64,000 nucleotides of DNA. It comes from Ruegeria marisrubri. GTDB taxonomy: Bacteria > Pseudomonadota > Alphaproteobacteria > Rhodobacterales > Rhodobacteraceae. The notes beneath the pieces were generated by a model that saw nothing but the letters and a program-made list of their open reading frames with translations, ran no database searches and was not told the DNA's origin. The stretch is taken from contig NZ_LQBQ01000035.1 in the NCBI RefSeq assembly GCF_001507595.1, positions 124,001-188,000 of the forward strand. Direction: 5' to 3'. The first letter of the stretch is position 1, and every line of letters begins with the position of its first letter. Of this stretch, positions 25,263 to 36,124 are shown piece after piece. A program made the translations under genes and the position numbers.

Positions 25263-26750
25263 ATGACGAAATCAAGGTATCGCACCTTTGCGTCCGCCTT
25301 GGCGGTGGGCGCCAGCCTGTTTGCGACCCAGGGCTGGGCGCAGTCGGACATCACCATCGCAATGCAGCTCGAGCCGCCGCATCTGGACCCGACCAGCGCC
25401 GCCGCGCAGGCCATCGACTCGGTGGTCTATGCGAACGTGTTCCAGGGGCTGACCCGCTTCATGGGGGATGGCTCGATCGTGCCGTCGCTGGCCGCAAGCT
25501 GGGACATTTCCGAGGACGGCAAGACGTATACGTTCAAGCTGCATGACGGCGTGACCTTCCATGACGGCACCACGATGGATGCCGAGGACGTCAAGTTCAG
25601 CCTCGACCGCGCCCGCGCCGAGGACAGCGCGAACGCCCAGAAGGCCCTGTTCGCAGGGATCGAGACCGTCGAGGCCGTGGACCCGCTGACCGTCAGGATC
25701 ACCCTGAAGGAGCCGAACGGCAATTTCCTGTTCAACCTGGCCTGGGGCGACGCGGTGATCGTGGCGCCGGAAAGCATCGAGAACATCAAGACCAGCCCGG
25801 TCGGCACCGGCCCCTACACCTTTGCCGAATGGGTGCAAGGTGATCGGGTGGTGCTGCAGCGCAACCCCGATTACTGGGGCGAACAGCCGGCGCTGGAAAA
25901 AGCGACCTTCAAGTTCATCTCGGACCCGACCGCGGCCTTTGCCGCCGTGATGGCCGAGGACGTGGACGTGTTCACCGGCTTCCCCGCGCCCGAGAACCTG
26001 CCGCAATTCGAGGCCGATCCGCGGTTCCAGGTGCTGGTCGGCTCGACCGAGGGTGAAACGATCCTGTCCACCAACAACAAGCAACCTCCGTTCGACGATG
26101 TCCGGGTGCGCAAGGCGATGGCCCATGCCATCGACCGGCAGGCCATCATCGACGGGGCGATGTTCGGCTACGGCACCCCGATCGGCACCCATTTCGCGCC
26201 GCACCACCCGGCCTATGTCGATCTGACCGGCAATTCGGCCTATGACCCGGAACAGGCAAAGGCCCTGCTGGCCGAGGCGGGCTTCCCGGACGGGTTCGAA
26301 ACCACCCTGCACCTGCCGCCGCCCTCCTACGCGCGGCGCGGGGGCGAGATCATCGCCGCGCAGCTGGCCGAGGTCGGCATCAAGGCCGAGATCATCAACG
26401 TCGAGTGGGCGCAATGGCTGGAAACCGTGTTCAAGGGCAAGGATTACGGCCTGACCATCGTCAGCCATACCGAGCCGATGGATATCGGCATCTACGCCCG
26501 GCCGGATTACTACTTCCAGTATGACAACCCCGAGTTCCAGAAACTGATGGAAACGCTGAACGCCACGACCGACGAGGCCAAGCGGACCGAGTTGCTGCAG
26601 CAGGCCCAGCGGATCATCGCCGAGGATTACGTCAACGGCTACCTGTTCCAGCTGGCGGCGCTGAGCGTGGCCAAGGCCGGTGTCCAGGGCCTGTGGGTCA
26701 ACGCGCCGACGGCGGCGACCGACCTTGCCGCGATTTCCTGGTCCGAGTGA
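25263..26750 (+). CDS. ABC transporter substrate-binding protein, dipeptide/oligopeptide (family 5) type
   Basis: A 495-residue periplasmic binding protein. ATG 25263 follows GGGAGGGA and begins a signal peptide (about 26 residues, ending GWA-QS). The mature protein opens with the cluster C pattern [13 protein letters not shown], then [36 protein letters not shown] and [12 protein letters not shown], all typical of DppA/OppA-like proteins that also bind amino-sugar, opine or polyamine-like ligands. It is the first gene of the operon; a strong hairpin follows it, so it can be made in excess of the membrane components. The ligand is not deducible. Confidence 0.93.
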
Positions 26751-26761
26751 CCGCAAAGGCA

Positions 26762-26785
26762 GGAGGCCCGGACGCCCGGGCCTCC
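26762..26785 (+). terminator. Hairpin between binding-protein and channel genes
   Basis: A perfect 10-base stem GGAGGCCCGG/CCGGGCCTCC with loop ACGC, 11 bases after the binding-protein stop and 27 bases before the channel start. There is no T run. It probably attenuates read-through or protects the upstream mRNA 3' end, giving more binding protein than downstream products. Confidence 0.7.
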
Positions 26786-26811
26786 GCATTCACCCCAAGT
26801 TTCTGATCCAC

Positions 26812-27894
26812 ATGTATTTCCTGCGCCTTTCGCGTCTTCTGATCTTCAACTTTGCCCTGCTGCTTGCCGGGCTGTTCCATTCGCCCGGTCCGGCCGGCGC
26901 CCAGGACATGTTGTCCGAAGGCTTTGCCACGAGGGTGGAAATCCCCGACGAACCCTTGCAAGTCGGCATCGGGATCCAGATCGACCAGATCACCGGCGTC
27001 GATCAGAAGGCCGAAAACTATGGCGCCGTTGTGGTCATTCGTGGCGAATGGAAAGACCCGGAGCTGGCCTTCGACCCGGAAGAAAGAGGGCGAGAGGTTC
27101 TGGTGGTCGATCCCAAGAAGCTTGCCGATTACGCGGCCTCCATCGGAGCGGTCATTCCCGTCTTCGTCATCCAGAACCAGCAGTCAAACCGCTGGATCCA
27201 CGAATCCGTGGCCGCGGTCCATAGCGACGGCCATGTCGTCTATGTCGAGAAATCGTCCCTGACGTTGCAGGCACCCCATTTCAACTTCCTGCAATACCCG
27301 TTCGACACCCAGGAGTTCCATTTCAAGGTGGACTCGATCCTGCCGTCCGAATTCGTGTCCTTCGTGCCGCTGCACGAATTCTCGGGGCTGGGCGATCAGC
27401 TGGGGGAAGAAGAGTGGATTCTCGACAACGACAGAATGGAGAAGAACCACATCATCGGCGTGTCGGGGCGGATCAGCGACCAGGTGGATCTGGTTTTCGA
27501 GGGCAGGCGCCACCTGACCTATTACATCATCCGGGTCTTTCTGCCGATGCTGGTTCTGGTCACCGTCAGCTGGGCCCTGTTCTTTCTGGACGAATACCGC
27601 AAGCGGATCGAGATTTCCGGGGCCAACCTGCTGGTTTTCGTCGCCTTCAACTGGGCGATCTCGGCTGACCTGCCCAAGCTGGGGTATCTCACTTTCGTCG
27701 ACTTCATCCTGCAGTGGATGTTCCTGGTGACCGGCGCGATCATCGTCTTCAACGTGGTGCTGCGAAAGATCAAGGTTTCGGGGCGCGGCGACCTGGCCCG
27801 CAAGCTCGACAACTACGTCATCAAGTGGATCTATCCGCTGGGCTATGCCGCCATCGTCGGCTGGGCTGTTTATGCCTATCTGCTAGCGCCTTAG
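26812..27894 (+). CDS. Prokaryotic pentameric ligand-gated ion channel (Cys-loop receptor homolog, GLIC/ELIC type)
   Basis: A 360-residue protein. A signal peptide (about 1-30, ending AGA-QD) precedes a beta-rich extracellular domain (31-232). The Cys-loop equivalent FLQYPFDTQEFHF (159-171) has no cysteines but keeps the YPFD core, as in GLIC. Four membrane helices follow: M1 (about 235-258, FLPMLVLVTVSWALFFLDE), M2 (about 266-284, with VAFNWAISADLPKLGYLT matching the AFN...LPK..Y.T pattern of GLIC M2 and the M2-M3 loop), M3 (294-316) and M4 (338-358). The short M3-M4 linker is typical of bacterial members. The pore start has basic RKR (263-265) and a Glu (267); ion selectivity cannot be inferred. 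Unusually it sits inside an ABC transporter operon between the binding-protein and permease genes. No clear ribosome site precedes ATG 26812. Confidence 0.9.
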   Translation: MYFLRLSRLLIFNFALLLAGLFHSPGPAGAQDMLSEGFATRVEIPDEPLQVGIGIQIDQITGVDQKAENYGAVVVIRGEWKDPELAFDPEERGREVLVVDPKKLADYAASIGAVIPVFVIQNQQSNRWIHESVAAVHSDGHVVYVEKSSLTLQAPHFNFLQYPFDTQEFHFKVDSILPSEFVSFVPLHEFSGLGDQLGEEEWILDNDRMEKNHIIGVSGRISDQVDLVFEGRRHLTYYIIRVFLPMLVLVTVSWALFFLDEYRKRIEISGANLLVFVAFNWAISADLPKLGYLTFVDFILQWMFLVTGAIIVFNVVLRKIKVSGRGDLARKLDNYVIKWIYPLGYAAIVGWAVYAYLLAP

Positions 27895-27934
27895 GCGCTG
27901 GACCCGGGGCGAAACCGCGCCTAACGTGGCGCTG

Positions 27935-28882
27935 ATGCTTCGCTATGCGCTCAAACGCCTGATCTCGCTGGTTCTCAGCCTCGCGGTCGCCTCGGTGGTC
28001 ATCTTCGCGGTGATCGAGGTGGCCCCCGGCGATCCGGCGTCCTTCATGCTGGGGGTGAACGCGCAGCCCGACACCCTGGCGGCCTTGCGCGCCGAGCTTG
28101 GCCTGGATGTGCCCAGGCTCGAGCGGTATTTCACCTGGGTCGGCGGGATGCTGACCGGCGATTTTGGCACCTCCTACACCTACCGCACGCCCGTTTCGAC
28201 CATGATCGCGGACCGGATGTGGGTGTCTCTGCCGCTGGCGCTCTATGCGCTCACGCTGTCGACGGCCATAGCCTTTCCGGCGGGCATCTATGCGGCCTCG
28301 CGGCGCGGCCGCCCCGGAGACATCGCGGTGATGGGCGCCACCCAGCTGGGCATCGCGGTGCCGAATTTCTGGTTCGCGATGATGCTGGTGCTGATCTTTG
28401 CGATCAATCTGCGCCTGTTCAACGCCGGAGGCTTTGCCGGGTGGGAAAACGGTATCTGGGCCGGCCTGCACTCGCTGACCCTGCCCGCCATCGCGCTGGC
28501 GCTACCGCAGGCGGCGATCCTGGCGCGGGTGATGCGCTCGGCGCTCTTGGACATACTGGGCGAGGACTTCATGCGCACCGCCCGCGCCAAGGGCCTCAGC
28601 AGCCGTCAGGCGCTGTGGCGGCACGGGGTGCGCAACGCGCTGATCCCGGTGCTGACGATCATCGGGCTGCAGTTCTCGTTCCTGCTGGCCGGTGCGATCA
28701 TCATCGAGCAGGTCTTCTACCTGCCCGGGCTCGGGCGGCTGGTATTCCAGGCGATCTCGTCGCGCGACCTGATCGTGGTCGAGTCGGTGGTGATGCTGCT
28801 GGTCTTTGCGGTCATCACCGTCAATTTCCTCGTCGATCTGGCCTATGCCGCCGTCGATCCCCGGCTGAGGAGCCGCACATGA
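27935..28882 (+). CDS. ABC transporter permease, DppB/OppB type
   Basis: A 315-residue inner-membrane permease with about six helices. N-terminal LKRLISLVLSLAVASVVIF, the GDPA motif and the EAA loop in MRTARAKGLSSRQALWRHGVRNALIPV identify the DppB/OppB group. It pairs with the next permease to form the channel of the peptide/opine-type transporter. ATG 27935 is preferred; an in-frame GTG lies 9 bases earlier. The stop overlaps the next start by 4 bases (ATGA). Confidence 0.93.
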   Translation: MLRYALKRLISLVLSLAVASVVIFAVIEVAPGDPASFMLGVNAQPDTLAALRAELGLDVPRLERYFTWVGGMLTGDFGTSYTYRTPVSTMIADRMWVSLPLALYALTLSTAIAFPAGIYAASRRGRPGDIAVMGATQLGIAVPNFWFAMMLVLIFAINLRLFNAGGFAGWENGIWAGLHSLTLPAIALALPQAAILARVMRSALLDILGEDFMRTARAKGLSSRQALWRHGVRNALIPVLTIIGLQFSFLLAGAIIIEQVFYLPGLGRLVFQAISSRDLIVVESVVMLLVFAVITVNFLVDLAYAAVDPRLRSRT

Positions 28883-29694
28883 GCCGCAACCTCATCCTCG
28901 GCGCCTGCCTGTCGTCTCTGGTGGTTCTCGCGGCGCTCGTGTCCTTTGTCTGGACGCCCTATGACCACGCGGCACTGAACATTCCCGACAAGCTGCAACC
29001 GCCCAACGCGCGGCACTGGTTCGGCACCGACCATTTCGGGCGCGACATGTTCTCGATGATCATGGTGGGCGCGCGCACCTCGATCGCGGTGGCGCTGGTG
29101 GCGGTGGGCATCGGTGTGGGCTTTGGCGTGCCGGTGGGACTGACGGCGGCGGCGCGCAAGGGGTCGTGGCTGGATGAGCTGATCATGCGCGGCAACGATC
29201 TGGTCTTTGCCTTCCCCTCGCTGGTCATCGCCATCCTGATCACCGCCGTCTTCGGCGCCGGCGCGATCAACGCGATCATCGCCATCGGCATCTTCAACAT
29301 CCCCGTCTTCGCCCGCATCACCCGCGGCGCGGCGCTGTCCCTGTGGGAGCGCGAGTTCATCCTGGCCGCCCGCGTGGCGGGCAAGGGCGCGGCGCGGATC
29401 TCGGCCGAGCACATCCTGCCCAACGTGGCCAACCTGCTGATCGTGCAGGGCACCATCCAGTTCAGCTTGGGCATTCTGGCCGAGGCGGGTTTGTCCTATG
29501 TCGGTCTGGGCGCGCAACCGCCCACGCCCAGCTGGGGCCGGATGCTGGCGGATGCGCAGACGATGGTCAGTTTTGCCCCGCATCTGGCTCTGATTCCGGG
29601 GCTGGCGATCATCGTCACGGTGCTGGGACTGAACCTGATGGGTGACGGGCTGCGCGACTGGCTCGACCCCCGCATCCGGGTGGCGCGTGCATGA
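28879..29694 (+). CDS. ABC transporter permease, DppC/OppC type
   Basis: A 271-residue permease. The N-terminal helix is followed by the DppC-type GTDHFGRDMFSMIMVGARTS, and the EAA loop ILAARVAGKGAARISAEHILPN is present. It is somewhat shorter than typical DppC (about 300) because the N-terminal tail is short. ATGA overlaps on both sides (with the first permease and with the ATPase gene) show tight translational coupling of the three membrane-complex genes. Confidence 0.93.
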   Translation: MSRNLILGACLSSLVVLAALVSFVWTPYDHAALNIPDKLQPPNARHWFGTDHFGRDMFSMIMVGARTSIAVALVAVGIGVGFGVPVGLTAAARKGSWLDELIMRGNDLVFAFPSLVIAILITAVFGAGAINAIIAIGIFNIPVFARITRGAALSLWEREFILAARVAGKGAARISAEHILPNVANLLIVQGTIQFSLGILAEAGLSYVGLGAQPPTPSWGRMLADAQTMVSFAPHLALIPGLAIIVTVLGLNLMGDGLRDWLDPRIRVARA

Positions 29695-31289
29695 GCCTGC
29701 TCGAGATCCATAACCTGTCGCTGTCGATCCACTCGGTCGGGATCCTCAAGAATGTGAGCCTGTCCGTCGAGCCCGGGCAGATCGTGGCCGTCACCGGCGA
29801 GAGCGGCTCGGGCAAGTCGATGACGGCGCTGGCGGTGATGCAGCTCTTGCCCAACGGGGCGCGGACATCGGGGGCGCTGCGACTGGACGGGCAGGACCTG
29901 CTGGGCCTGCCCGAGGCCGAGATGTGCGCCCTGCGCGGCGCGGCGATCGGCATGGTGTTCCAGGAACCGATGACGGCGCTCAACCCGGTCCAGACCATCG
30001 GCGCGCAGGTGATGGAAACCATCCTGATCCACAAGGCGATGCCGCCCGATCAGGCCGAGGCCCGCGCCCGCGAGGTTCTGACCCGCGTCGGCCTGCCGCC
30101 CGAGAAGTTCCCGCTGGACCGCTATCCGCACGAACTGTCGGGCGGGCAGCGGCAGCGGGTGGTGATCGCCATGGCCATCGCGCTGCGCCCCCGGCTGCTG
30201 ATCGCGGACGAGCCGACGACCGCGCTGGACGTGACCACGCAGGCGCAGATCCTCGACCTCCTCAAGGGGCTGGTCACGGAATATGGCATGGGCCTGCTGA
30301 TGATCACCCACGATCTGGCGGTGGTGGCGGGCATGGCCGACCGGATCGTGGTGATGCGCAATGGCGAGGTGGTCGAGGCCGGGCCGACGGGCCACCTGCT
30401 GACCAACATGCGGCACCCCTATACGCGGATGCTGTTCGAGGCCTCGAACCATCAGGTCGAACTGCCCGCAACGGTGGCCCCCGCGCCGCTGCTTTCCGTC
30501 TCGGATGTGGTGCGAGACTATCGCCTGCCGCGCACACGGCTGTTCGAAAAGCCCGGCCATCACCGGGCCGTGGACCATGTCAGTTTCACGCTGAACCGGG
30601 GCGAACGCCTTGGACTTGTGGGCGAGTCCGGCTGCGGAAAATCGACCCTAACACGGGCCATCTTGGGGCTGGAGGAGGTTCAGGGCGGGCAGATCCTGCT
30701 GGACGGCCAGCCGGTATTCACCGGGCACAAACCCAATCTGGCCGTGCGCCGCAAGATGCAGGTGGTGTTCCAGGATCCGTTCGGCAGCTTCAACCCCCGC
30801 CACCGTGTCGCCCGCCTGATCACCGAGCCCTTTCACCTGCTGGAAACGCCGCCCACAGGCACCGAACGGCAGGATCGCATCGCCGAGATGCTGACCGCCG
30901 TGGGGCTCTCGCCGGACGATGCAGGGAAATACATCCACGAATTCTCGGGCGGGCAGCGCCAGCGCATCGCCATCGCCCGCGCCCTGATCATCCGGCCCGA
31001 GCTGATCCTGTTCGACGAGGCCGTCTCGGCGCTGGACGTGTCCGTGCGGGCGCAGATCCTCGACCTGCTGGCCGAGCTCTGCGCGGTCTATGACCTGACC
31101 TACCTGTTCATCAGCCATGACCTGAGTGTGGTGCGCACGATCACCGACCGAGTGATGGTGATGCAGGCAGGAAAAATCGTCGAACAGGGTGAAACCGAGG
31201 CCGTCTTTGCCGATCCGAAACACCCCTACACACGGGCGCTTCTGGCGGCGGCTCCGCGCCTGCCGGAGATCGGACAGGGGGCGGCTTGA
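29691..31289 (+). CDS. ABC transporter ATP-binding protein with two fused ATPase domains (DppD-DppF type)
   Basis: A 532-residue protein carrying both nucleotide-binding domains of the transporter. Domain 1 has Walker A GESGSGKS (residues 36-43), signature LSGGQRQRVVIAMAIA and Walker B LLIADEPTTALD. Domain 2 has Walker A GESGCGKS (about 310), signature FSGGQRQRIAIARALI and Walker B LILFDEAVSALD. In that last motif Ala-Val replaces the usual Pro-Thr of DEPT, which is common in the second domain of this family. Fusions of this kind are frequent in Rhizobiales and Rhodobacterales peptide importers. It is the last transporter gene; an aldehyde dehydrogenase follows after 76 bases. Confidence 0.95.
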   Translation: MSLLEIHNLSLSIHSVGILKNVSLSVEPGQIVAVTGESGSGKSMTALAVMQLLPNGARTSGALRLDGQDLLGLPEAEMCALRGAAIGMVFQEPMTALNPVQTIGAQVMETILIHKAMPPDQAEARAREVLTRVGLPPEKFPLDRYPHELSGGQRQRVVIAMAIALRPRLLIADEPTTALDVTTQAQILDLLKGLVTEYGMGLLMITHDLAVVAGMADRIVVMRNGEVVEAGPTGHLLTNMRHPYTRMLFEASNHQVELPATVAPAPLLSVSDVVRDYRLPRTRLFEKPGHHRAVDHVSFTLNRGERLGLVGESGCGKSTLTRAILGLEEVQGGQILLDGQPVFTGHKPNLAVRRKMQVVFQDPFGSFNPRHRVARLITEPFHLLETPPTGTERQDRIAEMLTAVGLSPDDAGKYIHEFSGGQRQRIAIARALIIRPELILFDEAVSALDVSVRAQILDLLAELCAVYDLTYLFISHDLSVVRTITDRVMVMQAGKIVEQGETEAVFADPKHPYTRALLAAAPRLPEIGQGAA

Positions 31290-31365: not shown

Positions 31366-32817
31366 ATGACAGACCCGATCTGGTTCGACCCGACCCTCTG
31401 CCTCATTGGCGGCAAGTGGCAGCCCGCAGCCCAAGGCGAGACCCTGCCGCTGATCAACCCGTCCGACGGAACCGAGATCTGCCGGATCGCGCGCGGGGGG
31501 GCGGCCGACATCGACGCGGCCGTGGCGGCGGCGCAAGAGGCAAGGGACGGTGACTGGGGCCGCATGACCGCCGTCGAGCGGGGCCGCATCCTGACCCGTC
31601 TGGGGCAGCTGGTGCTGGCGCGCACCGACACCCTGGCGGCGCTCGAGGCGATGGACGTGGGCAAACCCCTCAGCCAGGCCCGCGCCGATGCGCTGGCGCT
31701 GGCGCGCTATTGCGAGTTCTACGGCGGCGCGGCGGACAAGGTGATGGGCCAGACCATCCCCTATCTCGACGGCTACACCGTCTATACCCTGCGCGAGCCG
31801 CATGGCGTGACCGGCCATATCGTGCCTTGGAACTATCCGATGCAGATCATCGGCCGCTCGGTGGGGGCGGCGCTGGCGATGGGCAATGCCTGCGTTCTGA
31901 AACCGGCCGAAGAGGCCTGTTTGACCGCGCTGGCCTTTGCCCATCTGGCGGTCGAGGCGGGGCTGCCCGCCGGTGCGCTGAACGTGGTGCCGGGGCTCGG
32001 CGCCGAGGCCGGGGCGGCGCTGTCGGGCCATCCGGGCGTGCATCACATTTCGTTCACCGGCTCGGTCGCCACGGGCGCGCTGGTGCAGCAGGCGGCAGGG
32101 CGCAACGTGGTGCCGGTGACGCTGGAGCTGGGCGGGAAATCCCCGCAACTGGTGTTTGACGACGCCGATCTCGACGCGGCTCTGCCCTTCCTCGTCAACG
32201 CGGGCATCCAGAACGCGGGCCAGACCTGTTCGGCCTCGTCCCGCATCCTCGTGCAGCGCGGTGTCTATGACGCGGTGCGGGCGCGGATGGCCGAGGCCTA
32301 TGCGCAGCTCACCGTCGGACCCGCCGCCGAGGATCTGCGGGTCGGGCCGCTGATTTCCGAGCGCCAGAAGCAGATCGTCGCCGGGTTTCTCGACAAGGGC
32401 CGGGATCTGACCATCGCGGCGCAGGGCAGGATCGTCGATCACGCGCCGGAAACGGGCGCCTATGTGCAGCCGACCCTGTTCGCCGACGTGCCGCCCGATC
32501 ACCTGCTGGCGCGCGACGAGATTTTCGGACCGGTGCAGGTGCTGATCCCCTTCGACACCGAGGACGAGGCCGTCGCGATCGCCAACGGAACCGATTACGG
32601 GCTGGTGGCCAGCATCTGGAGCCGCGACGGCGCGCGGCAGATGCGGCTGGCCAGGCGGCTGCGCTCGGGGCAGGTGTTCATCAACAACTATGGCGCCGGT
32701 GGGGGCGTGGAACTGCCCTTCGGCGGCGTCGGCAAGTCCGGTCATGGCCGCGAAAAGGGGTTCGAGGCGCTATACGGCTTTTCGCAGTTGAAAACCGTGG
32801 CCGCCTATCACGGTTAG
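31366..32817 (+). CDS. Aldehyde dehydrogenase family protein (transporter-linked)
   Basis: A 483-residue NAD(P)-dependent aldehyde dehydrogenase. Motifs: PWNYPMQ for cofactor binding, FTGSVATG, the general-base Glu in LELGGKSP, the catalytic Cys in NAGQTCSASSRILV, and EIFGPV. AAAGGAA lies upstream of ATG 31366. It oxidises an aldehyde to the acid. Placement directly after the ABC transporter suggests that the imported compound, or its deaminated product, yields the aldehyde; the substrate is not known. The 3' end faces pncB, 35 bases away on the other strand. Confidence 0.93.
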   Translation: MTDPIWFDPTLCLIGGKWQPAAQGETLPLINPSDGTEICRIARGGAADIDAAVAAAQEARDGDWGRMTAVERGRILTRLGQLVLARTDTLAALEAMDVGKPLSQARADALALARYCEFYGGAADKVMGQTIPYLDGYTVYTLREPHGVTGHIVPWNYPMQIIGRSVGAALAMGNACVLKPAEEACLTALAFAHLAVEAGLPAGALNVVPGLGAEAGAALSGHPGVHHISFTGSVATGALVQQAAGRNVVPVTLELGGKSPQLVFDDADLDAALPFLVNAGIQNAGQTCSASSRILVQRGVYDAVRARMAEAYAQLTVGPAAEDLRVGPLISERQKQIVAGFLDKGRDLTIAAQGRIVDHAPETGAYVQPTLFADVPPDHLLARDEIFGPVQVLIPFDTEDEAVAIANGTDYGLVASIWSRDGARQMRLARRLRSGQVFINNYGAGGGVELPFGGVGKSGHGREKGFEALYGFSQLKTVAAYHG

Positions 32818-34876: not shown

Positions 34877-35470
34877 TCACACGAGCCTGACACCCGCCTC
34901 CCGCATGGCCTCTTCCGCCGCGGCGAGCGATCCGTCCAGGTCGATGGCCCGGCAGGCATCCATCCTGACCGTCACGTCGAATCCCAGCGTCGCCGCATCC
35001 ACAGCGGAATAGTGAACGCAGAAATCGGTAGCGAGCCCGACGAGGGTCAGCATTTCGATCCCCCGCGTGCGCAGATAACCCTCCAGCCCGGTCGGCGTGG
35101 TGCGGTCGTTCTCGAAAAAGGCCGAGTAGCTGTCGATCGCCGGGCGGAAGCCCTTGCGCAGGATCAGGTCGGCATCGGTGCGCAGATCCTTGTGAAACTC
35201 CGCGCCTTCGGTTCCCTGCACGCAATGATCCGGCCACAGCACCTGCGGGCCGTATGGCATGTCGATCAGGTCAAAGGGCGACTTGCCCGGGTGCGTGCTG
35301 GCAAATGACGAATGTCCCGCCGGGTGCCAGTCCTGGGTCAGGATGACCGCGTCGAACTGGTCCATCATGGCTTTGATCGGCGCGACCACCTCGTCGCCGC
35401 CCGGCACGGCCAGCGCGCCACCGGGGCAGAAATCGTTTTGAACGTCGATCACGAGCAGGGCATGGGTCAT
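34877..35470 (-). CDS. pncA: Nicotinamidase PncA
   Basis: A 197-residue isochorismatase-like hydrolase converting nicotinamide to nicotinate (bifunctional with pyrazinamide in characterised members). The triad is Asp9 (VIDVQNDFCPGG), Lys106 (LRKGF) and Cys151 (GLATDFCVHYS). Metal ligands are Asp47 and His49 in QDWHP, with a further metal-site His82 in PDHCVQGT. ATG 35470 is supported by a perfect AAGGAGG ribosome site 7 bases upstream. With pncB it forms the NAD salvage route. Confidence 0.95.
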   Translation of the reverse strand: MTHALLVIDVQNDFCPGGALAVPGGDEVVAPIKAMMDQFDAVILTQDWHPAGHSSFASTHPGKSPFDLIDMPYGPQVLWPDHCVQGTEGAEFHKDLRTDADLILRKGFRPAIDSYSAFFENDRTTPTGLEGYLRTRGIEMLTLVGLATDFCVHYSAVDAATLGFDVTVRMDACRAIDLDGSLAAAEEAMREAGVRLV

Positions 35471-35623
35471 GGCAGCCTCCTTGGATACCCTATCGGTAGG
35501 GCGCGGGATTGTGCAGGTCAATCCGGTGACTGTACGGCCGCGTGGGGCCTTGGACAGTTCGAGGTTGCGGAATGGGCGTGCGCGCCAGATGATCGGACCG
35601 ATGCATATCATCGCGAGGCGCTC

Positions 35624-36124
35624 ATGTCCCAGGATCCGAATTCGCTGGAAGAATGGAAGACGACGCTGCTGGCCGCCGCAGGCCTGATCGTCGTCAGTTT
35701 CATCGCCTATTACATTCTGTCGCGTCTCGGCGATGACAGGGCAGGGGACAGGGTCGGATCAATCGCCACGGTGGGTCTGATAGTGTGGCTCGTCTCGCAG
35801 ACCTGGTACTACATGACCCAGGTTCACTCGCCCCGGCGTCAGTTGCTGCTGATGGGCATTTCCTTCATCCAGGTCGTGCCTTTCCTGTTTGCGGCGGTCT
35901 ATGGCTCGTTCGGGTACTACGATCTGTGCGTGGTCGGGGCCAAGACATCGACCGACGTGCTCTATTTCTCTTATGTGACCTTCACCACGCTCGGGTTTGG
36001 CGACCTGCGCCCCGTGGGCATGTGCCGCGCCATTGCCGTCGCCGAGGCGATCTCGGGCTATGTCCTGTTGGGGCTCTTTGTTGCGGCGGCCGTGGGCATC
36101 TACAGCCGCAACAGGACCTCCTAG
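35624..36124 (+). CDS. Small potassium-channel-like protein (Ion_trans_2 family)
   Basis: A 166-residue membrane protein with about four hydrophobic helices (about 14-33, 46-64, 74-93, 139-160). Between the last two is a pore-loop with the filter-like sequence FTTLGFGDLRP (residues 120-130), a variant of the potassium channel TVGYGD. Extracellular Cys102 and Cys134 could bridge. No cytosolic RCK/TrkA-N gating domain is present. ATG 35624 starts the first hydrophobic unit; the frame is open further upstream but overlaps the pncA promoter region. Function could be monovalent cation leak or conductance; direct evidence is limited to the filter and topology. Confidence 0.8.
   Translation: MSQDPNSLEEWKTTLLAAAGLIVVSFIAYYILSRLGDDRAGDRVGSIATVGLIVWLVSQTWYYMTQVHSPRRQLLLMGISFIQVVPFLFAAVYGSFGYYDLCVVGAKTSTDVLYFSYVTFTTLGFGDLRPVGMCRAIAVAEAISGYVLLGLFVAAAVGIYSRNRTS

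Follow-up and report, generated by a model that had tools for sequence, protein, structure and literature searches.

The closest solved relatives of the channel described here are sTeLIC, from a Tevnia endosymbiont (PDB 6fl9, 9ex6), and DeCLIC, from Desulfofustis (PDB 6v4a, 7q3g, 9eva). According to its PDB title, sTeLIC is gated by alkaline pH, and it has been solved with 4-bromophenethylamine at a vestibular site (9ewa title; available text of PMC11988449). DeCLIC is a protein of 642 aa with an N-terminal domain of about 300 residues, which the available part of PMC12664993 describes as a pair of jelly-roll lobes and not as a binding-protein fold. Its calcium is located near E347 in the β1-β2 loop and near E479-E481 in loop F (PMC9897478, available text). 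GLIC and ELIC belong to the same superfamily and have the same fold.

Neighborhoods of channel genes and genes for periplasmic binding proteins (ART-LGIC/PBP-II pairs) were reported as predicted operons by Tasneem et al. (2004), who proposed that both products cooperate, with the binding proteins concentrating or sensing ligands for channels that act as chemoreceptors (PMC549065, available text). The idea of a ligand shared between channel and binding protein is thus twenty years old in outline. Roseobacters (Silicibacter, Rhodobacter) are not named in the available text of PMC549065, and PMC4795631 holds no mention of operon, synteny, neighbor, periplasmic, Ruegeria or Rhodobacter. No paper on a roseobacter channel of the present kind was found in searches that covered few subscription journals and, where matches were numerous (57-903), their best 15-25; no electrophysiology of the window protein and no transcript data on co-expression came to light. 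Within the literature searched, the roseobacter branch, its single-insertion history, the calcium site in a channel without the N-terminal domain and the empty-gap comparisons are new here.

The window, i.e. the whole stretch of DNA analyzed, comprises 64,000 nucleotides of Ruegeria marisrubri (contig NZ_LQBQ01000035.1, positions 124,001 to 188,000). Like the pairs of Tasneem et al., it carries a channel gene and a periplasmic binding-protein gene in a predicted operon; it differs from them in that the importer is an SBP_bac_5 ABC system and the channel belongs to the DeCLIC/sTeLIC subfamily. The channel gene is a 360-codon frame on the + strand, with its ATG at 26812 and its stop at 27894. 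An initial annotation, made from the letters of the sequence, had read it as a Cys-loop receptor homolog, and Pfam, phmmer, AlphaFold2 and Foldseek all agree. Of the two domain models that the annotation had pointed to, the ligand-binding one (Neur_chan_LBD, PF02931) scores 48.2 bits (E 1.2e-12; cut-off 26 bits), while Pfam gives no membrane-domain model at E ≤ 0.001. The NCBIfam models LGIC_1 and LIC match at about 1e-25, yet under both curated cut-offs. Against solved structures, phmmer retrieves sTeLIC (1.9e-72, 247 bits) and DeCLIC (1.6e-71, 244 bits), followed by GLIC from 1.3e-27 at about 100 bits. The relatives named in the annotation, GLIC and ELIC, were hence right for the superfamily but are not the nearest ones.

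Structure prediction of the monomer returned the pLGIC fold (AlphaFold2, mean pLDDT 80.2, pTM 0.65), with an N-terminal helix, a β-rich domain and the four C-terminal helices that the annotation had expected (residues 235-256, 262-284, 291-322 and 326-358). The first 26 places in Foldseek are all taken by sTeLIC or DeCLIC chains, with TM-scores of 0.72-0.76 by query and up to 0.86 by target, identities of 36-39% and an E-value of 3.5e-31 to sTeLIC; GLIC has 23-24% identity in the same search. The quoted motifs YPFD, FLPML...SW, AFN, LPK and YLT are all present in the translation; YPFD forms the pro-loop at residues 162-165, in which P163, F164 and D165 are invariant in 45/45 syntenic sequences. 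The gene (26812..27894, +) is therefore confirmed as encoding a real pentameric ligand-gated channel subunit of the sTeLIC/DeCLIC subfamily, 360 aa long, which presumably assembles as a homopentamer. Residues 1 to about 30 (26812..26901, +) look by eye like a putative export signal; the model has a helix at 2-22 and a low-confidence stretch at 27-39. The own genome holds one match to the channel at E ≤ 0.001. A second channel-like gene of the window, at 35312-36124 (+), matches Ion_trans_2 (E 2.6e-9), has a two-helix pore of the potassium-channel type and lies near nicotinamidase and nicotinate phosphoribosyltransferase genes.

Homology to sTeLIC extends over the whole core (39% identity), and the core is 36-38% identical to that of DeCLIC. 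With sTeLIC the window channel shares the lack of an N-terminal domain, the GEEEW motif in loop F and an acidic residue at position 2' of M2, whereas GLIC lacks GEEEW in the alignment. The two differ at 16', which is Phe in sTeLIC and Trp in the window channel, and at the vestibular Trp75 and Arg86 of sTeLIC, which map from the alignment to Ile115 and Asn126. The N-terminal domain of DeCLIC is missing in all 23 window-group rows of the channel alignment, the window protein included. The four glutamates E347, E479, E480 and E481 of the DeCLIC calcium site are all conserved: in the alignment, Glu68 (27013..27015, +) in the β1-β2 loop corresponds to Glu347, and Glu199-Glu200-Glu201 (27406..27414, +) on the loop F side to Glu479-Glu480-Glu481. 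Each of these positions is Glu in 45/45 syntenic sequences. Nine near relatives keep E68, E199 and E200 in 9/9 and E201 in 8/9, and 12 far relatives have Glu at these positions in 1/12 (E68), 0/12 (E199), 8/12 (E200) and 0/12 (E201). Calcium is always high in seawater, and conservation of the site is no proof that calcium acts as the natural signal of the channel.

The pore helix M2 was delimited at residues 262-284 (27595..27663, +) from the model helix, with Glu267 at 2', Leu274 at 9' and Trp281 at 16' on what we take to be the GLIC/ELIC prime numbering. All 54 syntenic and near sequences have an acidic residue (E or D) at position 2', where 12/12 far ones have G or S, and such an acidic ring suggests a cation-selective channel. 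Residue 281 (27652-27654) is Trp in 45/45 syntenic sequences and Phe in 9/9 near relatives; the syntenic clade thus has its own residue at a position known as a gate, and gating may differ from that of DeCLIC. Conservation by segment was expressed as mean pairwise identity among 19 thinned syntenic sequences. M2 reaches 0.87, and loop F, at 0.83, ranks top among the sensor-domain segments measured, against 0.61 for the whole sensor domain and 0.49 for the loop C tip; residues 180-192 (0.43) and 83-100 (0.48) vary as much as this tip.

Pfam calls agree with the annotated position of the channel between a peptide-type binding-protein gene and its permeases, all on the + strand. The binding protein (25263..26750, +; 495 aa) is of the SBP_bac_5 type (PF00496, E 2.4e-98), and the channel starts 61 bp behind its gene and ends 31 bp before the first permease gene. 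Two BPD_transp_1 permeases follow (Pfam), at 27926..28882 (+) and 28879..29694 (+), the second scanned from 28885 and given a start at the ATG that overlaps the stop of the first. The next gene encodes a fused double ABC ATPase of the dipeptide/oligopeptide type (29691..31289, +; Pfam), for which PRK11308 and the nickel models NikD/NikE score above their cut-offs, and a Pfam-called aldehyde dehydrogenase gene follows at 31366..32817 (+), with 4ywe as the best solved relative of its product; none of the best 25 of its 44 NCBIfam models reaches the cut-off. As to the substrate of the importer, no listed NCBIfam model is above cut-off for the binding protein and the two permeases: the best matches of the binding protein, GsiB, NikA and DppA, each stay below, and solved relatives are diverse. 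We take SPO0097-0101 of R. pomeroyi to be the same operon. PMC4809877 (available text) lists an antisense RNA for SPO0098, which it calls a peptide/opine/nickel ATPase. SPO0097-SPO0101 are absent from the main text of a transporter-mutant paper (PMC10130141), and SPO0098, SPO0099 and SPO010x are all unmentioned in PMC9870897.

Just past the stop codon of the binding-protein gene, fold prediction places a stem-loop without a T-run (26759..26787, +). After removal of identical stretches, 64/93 distinct 50-nt stretches behind this stop, taken from the window and related loci, have z < -2, compared with 3/38 control windows inside the channel gene. The split is 30/37 for channel-bearing and 34/56 for other loci, with a few channel-bearing copies counted among the latter. 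The stem-loop varies in sequence and is predicted in most related loci, whether the gap behind it is empty or filled. Its position would put the channel on the downstream, presumably lower-expressed side.

A pattern scan with one genome per species yielded 47 loci with channel relatives; since channels were what it sought, the frequency of importers without a channel is not readable from these loci. Thirty-eight of these loci (L031-L068) have an intact channel gene immediately after the binding-protein gene. The permease starts 1-40 bp behind the channel in 34/38 (31 bp from stop to start in 29/38), at 1.3 kb in three Leisingera loci and at 6.5 kb in L059. Across syntenic loci the binding protein is 79-90% identical. 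One further contig (L073) begins inside the channel and continues into the permease, and in Jhaorihella (L076:7929-9085) the channel in the slot is split over two overlapping reading frames; such a frame may mean that the channel can be lost while the importer stays, or it may be a sequencing error. No binding-protein homolog was detected at 1e-10 near L069, L070, L071, L072, L074, L075 and L077, some of which have little flanking sequence. L075 is a channel fragment of this subfamily on a contig of 3.3 kb that was binned, perhaps in error, as the archaeon Methanofollis. In Leisingera L056, a histone-deacetylase-like gene (L056:9045-10367), 83% identical to the copy in L120, separates channel and permease, and L057 and L060 have channel-permease gaps of similar size. 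The roughly 6.5 kb in Ruegeria G043 (= L059; L144:4136-10683) include a 981-aa frame that we presume to be a sarcosine oxidase alpha subunit from its appearance.

The gap between binding protein and permease was then surveyed from the importer side in 295 family genomes from 294 genera. A channel match at 1e-3 occurs in 25 of these, half of them weak, a close binding-protein relative in 178 and a close permease relative in 183. For 141 of the 178 and 137 of the 183 the match was placed; 133 genomes had both genes, 113 of them on one contig and strand and 107 in the right order within 10 kb. In these 107 genomes the gap is empty (<300 bp) in 48, holds other inserts in 48 and a channel in 11, one of which is the broken Jhaorihella copy. 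Sequence was read for 37 of the 48 otherwise filled gaps, and ten insert proteins were scanned with Pfam. The inserts are mixed, and several of them lie on the opposite strand: arginase-family genes occur in two genomes, and M24, M32, tannase, GMC, cupin and exchanger genes each in one to a few. A histone-deacetylase-like gene recurs on the opposite strand in eight loci (L120, L122, L123, L126, L129, L137, L142 and L145; one confirmed by Pfam, the others by BLAST grouping) and may hint at an acylated amine as substrate of the importer. The gap is also empty in Ruegeria sp. TM1040 and in G031, which stands beside the Ruegeria group on the binding-protein tree. As the gap is empty or variously filled in most family genomes measured, we consider it an insertion slot, with the channel as one occupant among several.

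In a tree of 66 channels built with a quick method, the 45 syntenic sequences form one clade (SH-aLRT 98). This tree has long branches among its outer rows, with program warnings, and leaves out second copies from the same genome, fragments (L014, L024, L030, L073, L075) and broken copies (L013/L027/L076/L084, L015/L029). Three family members at other places (L010, L026, L012) are nearest to the syntenic clade, and the 632-655 aa proteins of Chloroflexota and Thiocapsa and Aliiruegeria L069 are farther out. With all syntenic channels in one clade, a single insertion explains their adjacency to the binding protein. Repeated independent insertion into the slot was rejected, as a single change on the channel tree accounts for all syntenic rows. 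On the binding-protein tree, the presence of the channel takes 7 to 8 changes; its 94 rows, selected by the presence of a channel, a long gap or high identity, form a biased sample. Together with the one channel clade, we read these changes as one gain and several losses. Cases of loss or decay are the split Jhaorihella channel and the empty gaps of G031 and TM1040, and a channel copy outside the slot in G007 carries three stops.

The channel is under purifying selection, with a pooled dN/dS of 0.064 over 13 close pairs chosen by hand among the 38 named loci, a value within the range of the neighboring genes (binding protein 0.041, permeases 0.034 and 0.029, ATPase 0.077, dehydrogenase 0.061). 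Its GC content is below that of both neighbors in 37/38 named loci and amounts in the window to 58.4%, versus 64.9-69.4% for the operon genes. We do not take this as proof of a foreign origin, because membrane-protein composition could contribute. Plasmid-borne spread of the channel was rejected: tblastn at 1e-5 found no channel match among 72,556 plasmid records, 102 of which hold a binding-protein relative at 1e-80, seven at ≥ 60% identity.

Outside the slot, a total of 30 proteins near 19 channel loci were scanned. A binding-protein neighbor occurs in one (L158) and in none of the scanned neighbors of the other 18, so that such a neighbor recurs rarely in this sample. The synteny survey proposed in the initial annotation accordingly gives a divided answer: orthologs of the slot clade share the binding-protein context, and other relatives mostly lie elsewhere. 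In L158:336-4864, genes for a TAXI-type binding protein (NMT1_3) and a DctM permease directly precede a channel of 28% identity; this channel belongs to an unrelated lineage, and its surroundings are a further, independent case of a channel next to transporter genes. The remaining neighbors are BipA, PGI, GCV_T, GTP cyclohydrolase, PhaC, ABC_trans_aux, urate oxidase, Omp85 and two-component proteins, or none. L156:1958-7059 and L163:2491-6827 each have another kind of pentameric channel, flanked by a urate oxidase gene (called as Urate_ox_N in L156 and by eye in L163) on one side and an Omp85/POTRA protein on the other; the recurrence of this setting may give a hint of its role. In a wider sample, 5 of 385 genomes of the class have a PF02931 match.

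With belief and doubt in about equal measure, we favor the view that the window encodes a cation channel regulated by calcium and perhaps by pH and co-expressed with the importer. Of this view, the fold, the subfamily, the conservation of site and pore, the single insertion and the purifying selection are backed by computation, while the homopentamer, cation selectivity, calcium gating, cellular role and co-transcription are inferred. The protein would form a homopentameric, cation-selective channel of the inner membrane, with its β-sandwich sensor in the periplasm and without the N-terminal domain of DeCLIC. Calcium bound between subunits at Glu68 and Glu199-201 would most likely favor the closed state; its loss, perhaps aided by alkaline pH or a small modulator, would open the channel, and the passage of Na+ or K+ would then change the membrane potential. 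A single insertion, in a forebear of several roseobacter genera, most likely brought the gene into the gap, and many of these genera have kept it. The link between channel and importer would most likely be co-expression, presumably from a common transcript, and not a common ligand.

The foremost alternative, which we consider possible though rather unlikely, is pure accident: a gap that tolerates insertions received the channel in one landing, and channel function is unrelated to the importer. The 48 empty gaps and the 48 with other inserts among 107, several on the opposite strand, are what it would lead one to expect, as are the single clade of syntenic channels and the assorted neighbors outside it (BipA, PGI, GCV_T, GTP cyclohydrolase, PhaC, urate oxidase, Omp85). 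It fits poorly with the purifying selection on the channel and with its position directly behind the binding protein in 38/38 intact loci, even in the four where 1.3 or 6.5 kb separate it from the permease.

That same constancy of position could also mean a ligand link. The initial annotation had taken the operon placement as a hint that the channel senses the ligand captured by the binding protein, and close to the proposal of Tasneem et al. (2004), the channel would open on the solute of the binding protein, so that the cell senses and imports one nutrient. We regard this as unlikely. Adjacency is retained across several roseobacter genera, and the unrelated channel of L158 also lies behind a binding protein and a permease; amines are possible channel ligands given the sTeLIC structure with 4-bromophenethylamine, though at its vestibular site, and the aldehyde dehydrogenase of the operon and the arginase-family gap genes in two other genomes would fit amine catabolism. 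The hint is nevertheless weak, as the arrangement goes back to one old insertion into a variable slot, and after the slot survey and the channel tree, adjacency was set aside as direct evidence of a shared ligand. The importer occurs without a channel in the gap in many genomes, including Ruegeria sp. TM1040, and the tip of loop C, the classical ligand loop, ranks with the most variable channel segments, while the binding protein is highly conserved in the same loci. Loop C can vary in receptors that keep their ligand, and its variability is evidence against a shared classical ligand rather than proof. A ligand common to channel and importer is not supported so far and has modest odds. Less probable still is that the roseobacter channel, being without a sensory domain, relies on the binding protein encoded upstream or on its solute, by which one operon would both sense a nutrient as a membrane-potential signal and import it.

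The weakest alternative, that the loaded binding protein docks onto the channel and gates it in place of the N-terminal domain of DeCLIC and other relatives, is very improbable: binding proteins of other systems do act on membrane sensors, and four near relatives of 632-655 aa from Chloroflexota and Thiocapsa (L070, L071, L072, L074) carry a large N-terminal extension that the 23 window-group rows are missing, but sTeLIC, the closest solved relative, lacks the domain too and has, to our knowledge, no link to a binding protein, the non-slot relatives L010, L012, L026 and L069 also lack it, and the jelly-roll lobes of DeCLIC are not a binding-protein fold.

The roseobacter family offers a way to approach the still unsettled question of what bacterial pentameric channels do for the cell. 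In Ruegeria and Leisingera the channel is strongly conserved in a fixed operon, and genomes with the same importer and an empty gap provide natural comparisons. For the co-expressed, calcium-regulated channel that we favor and its alternatives, the question splits into two: calcium or pH as gates, and the solute of the importer as ligand. An effect of this solute on the channel would connect genome context with a natural ligand. Gating by calcium or pH alone would make the operon an example of co-expression and would advise caution in guessing ligands from gene order.
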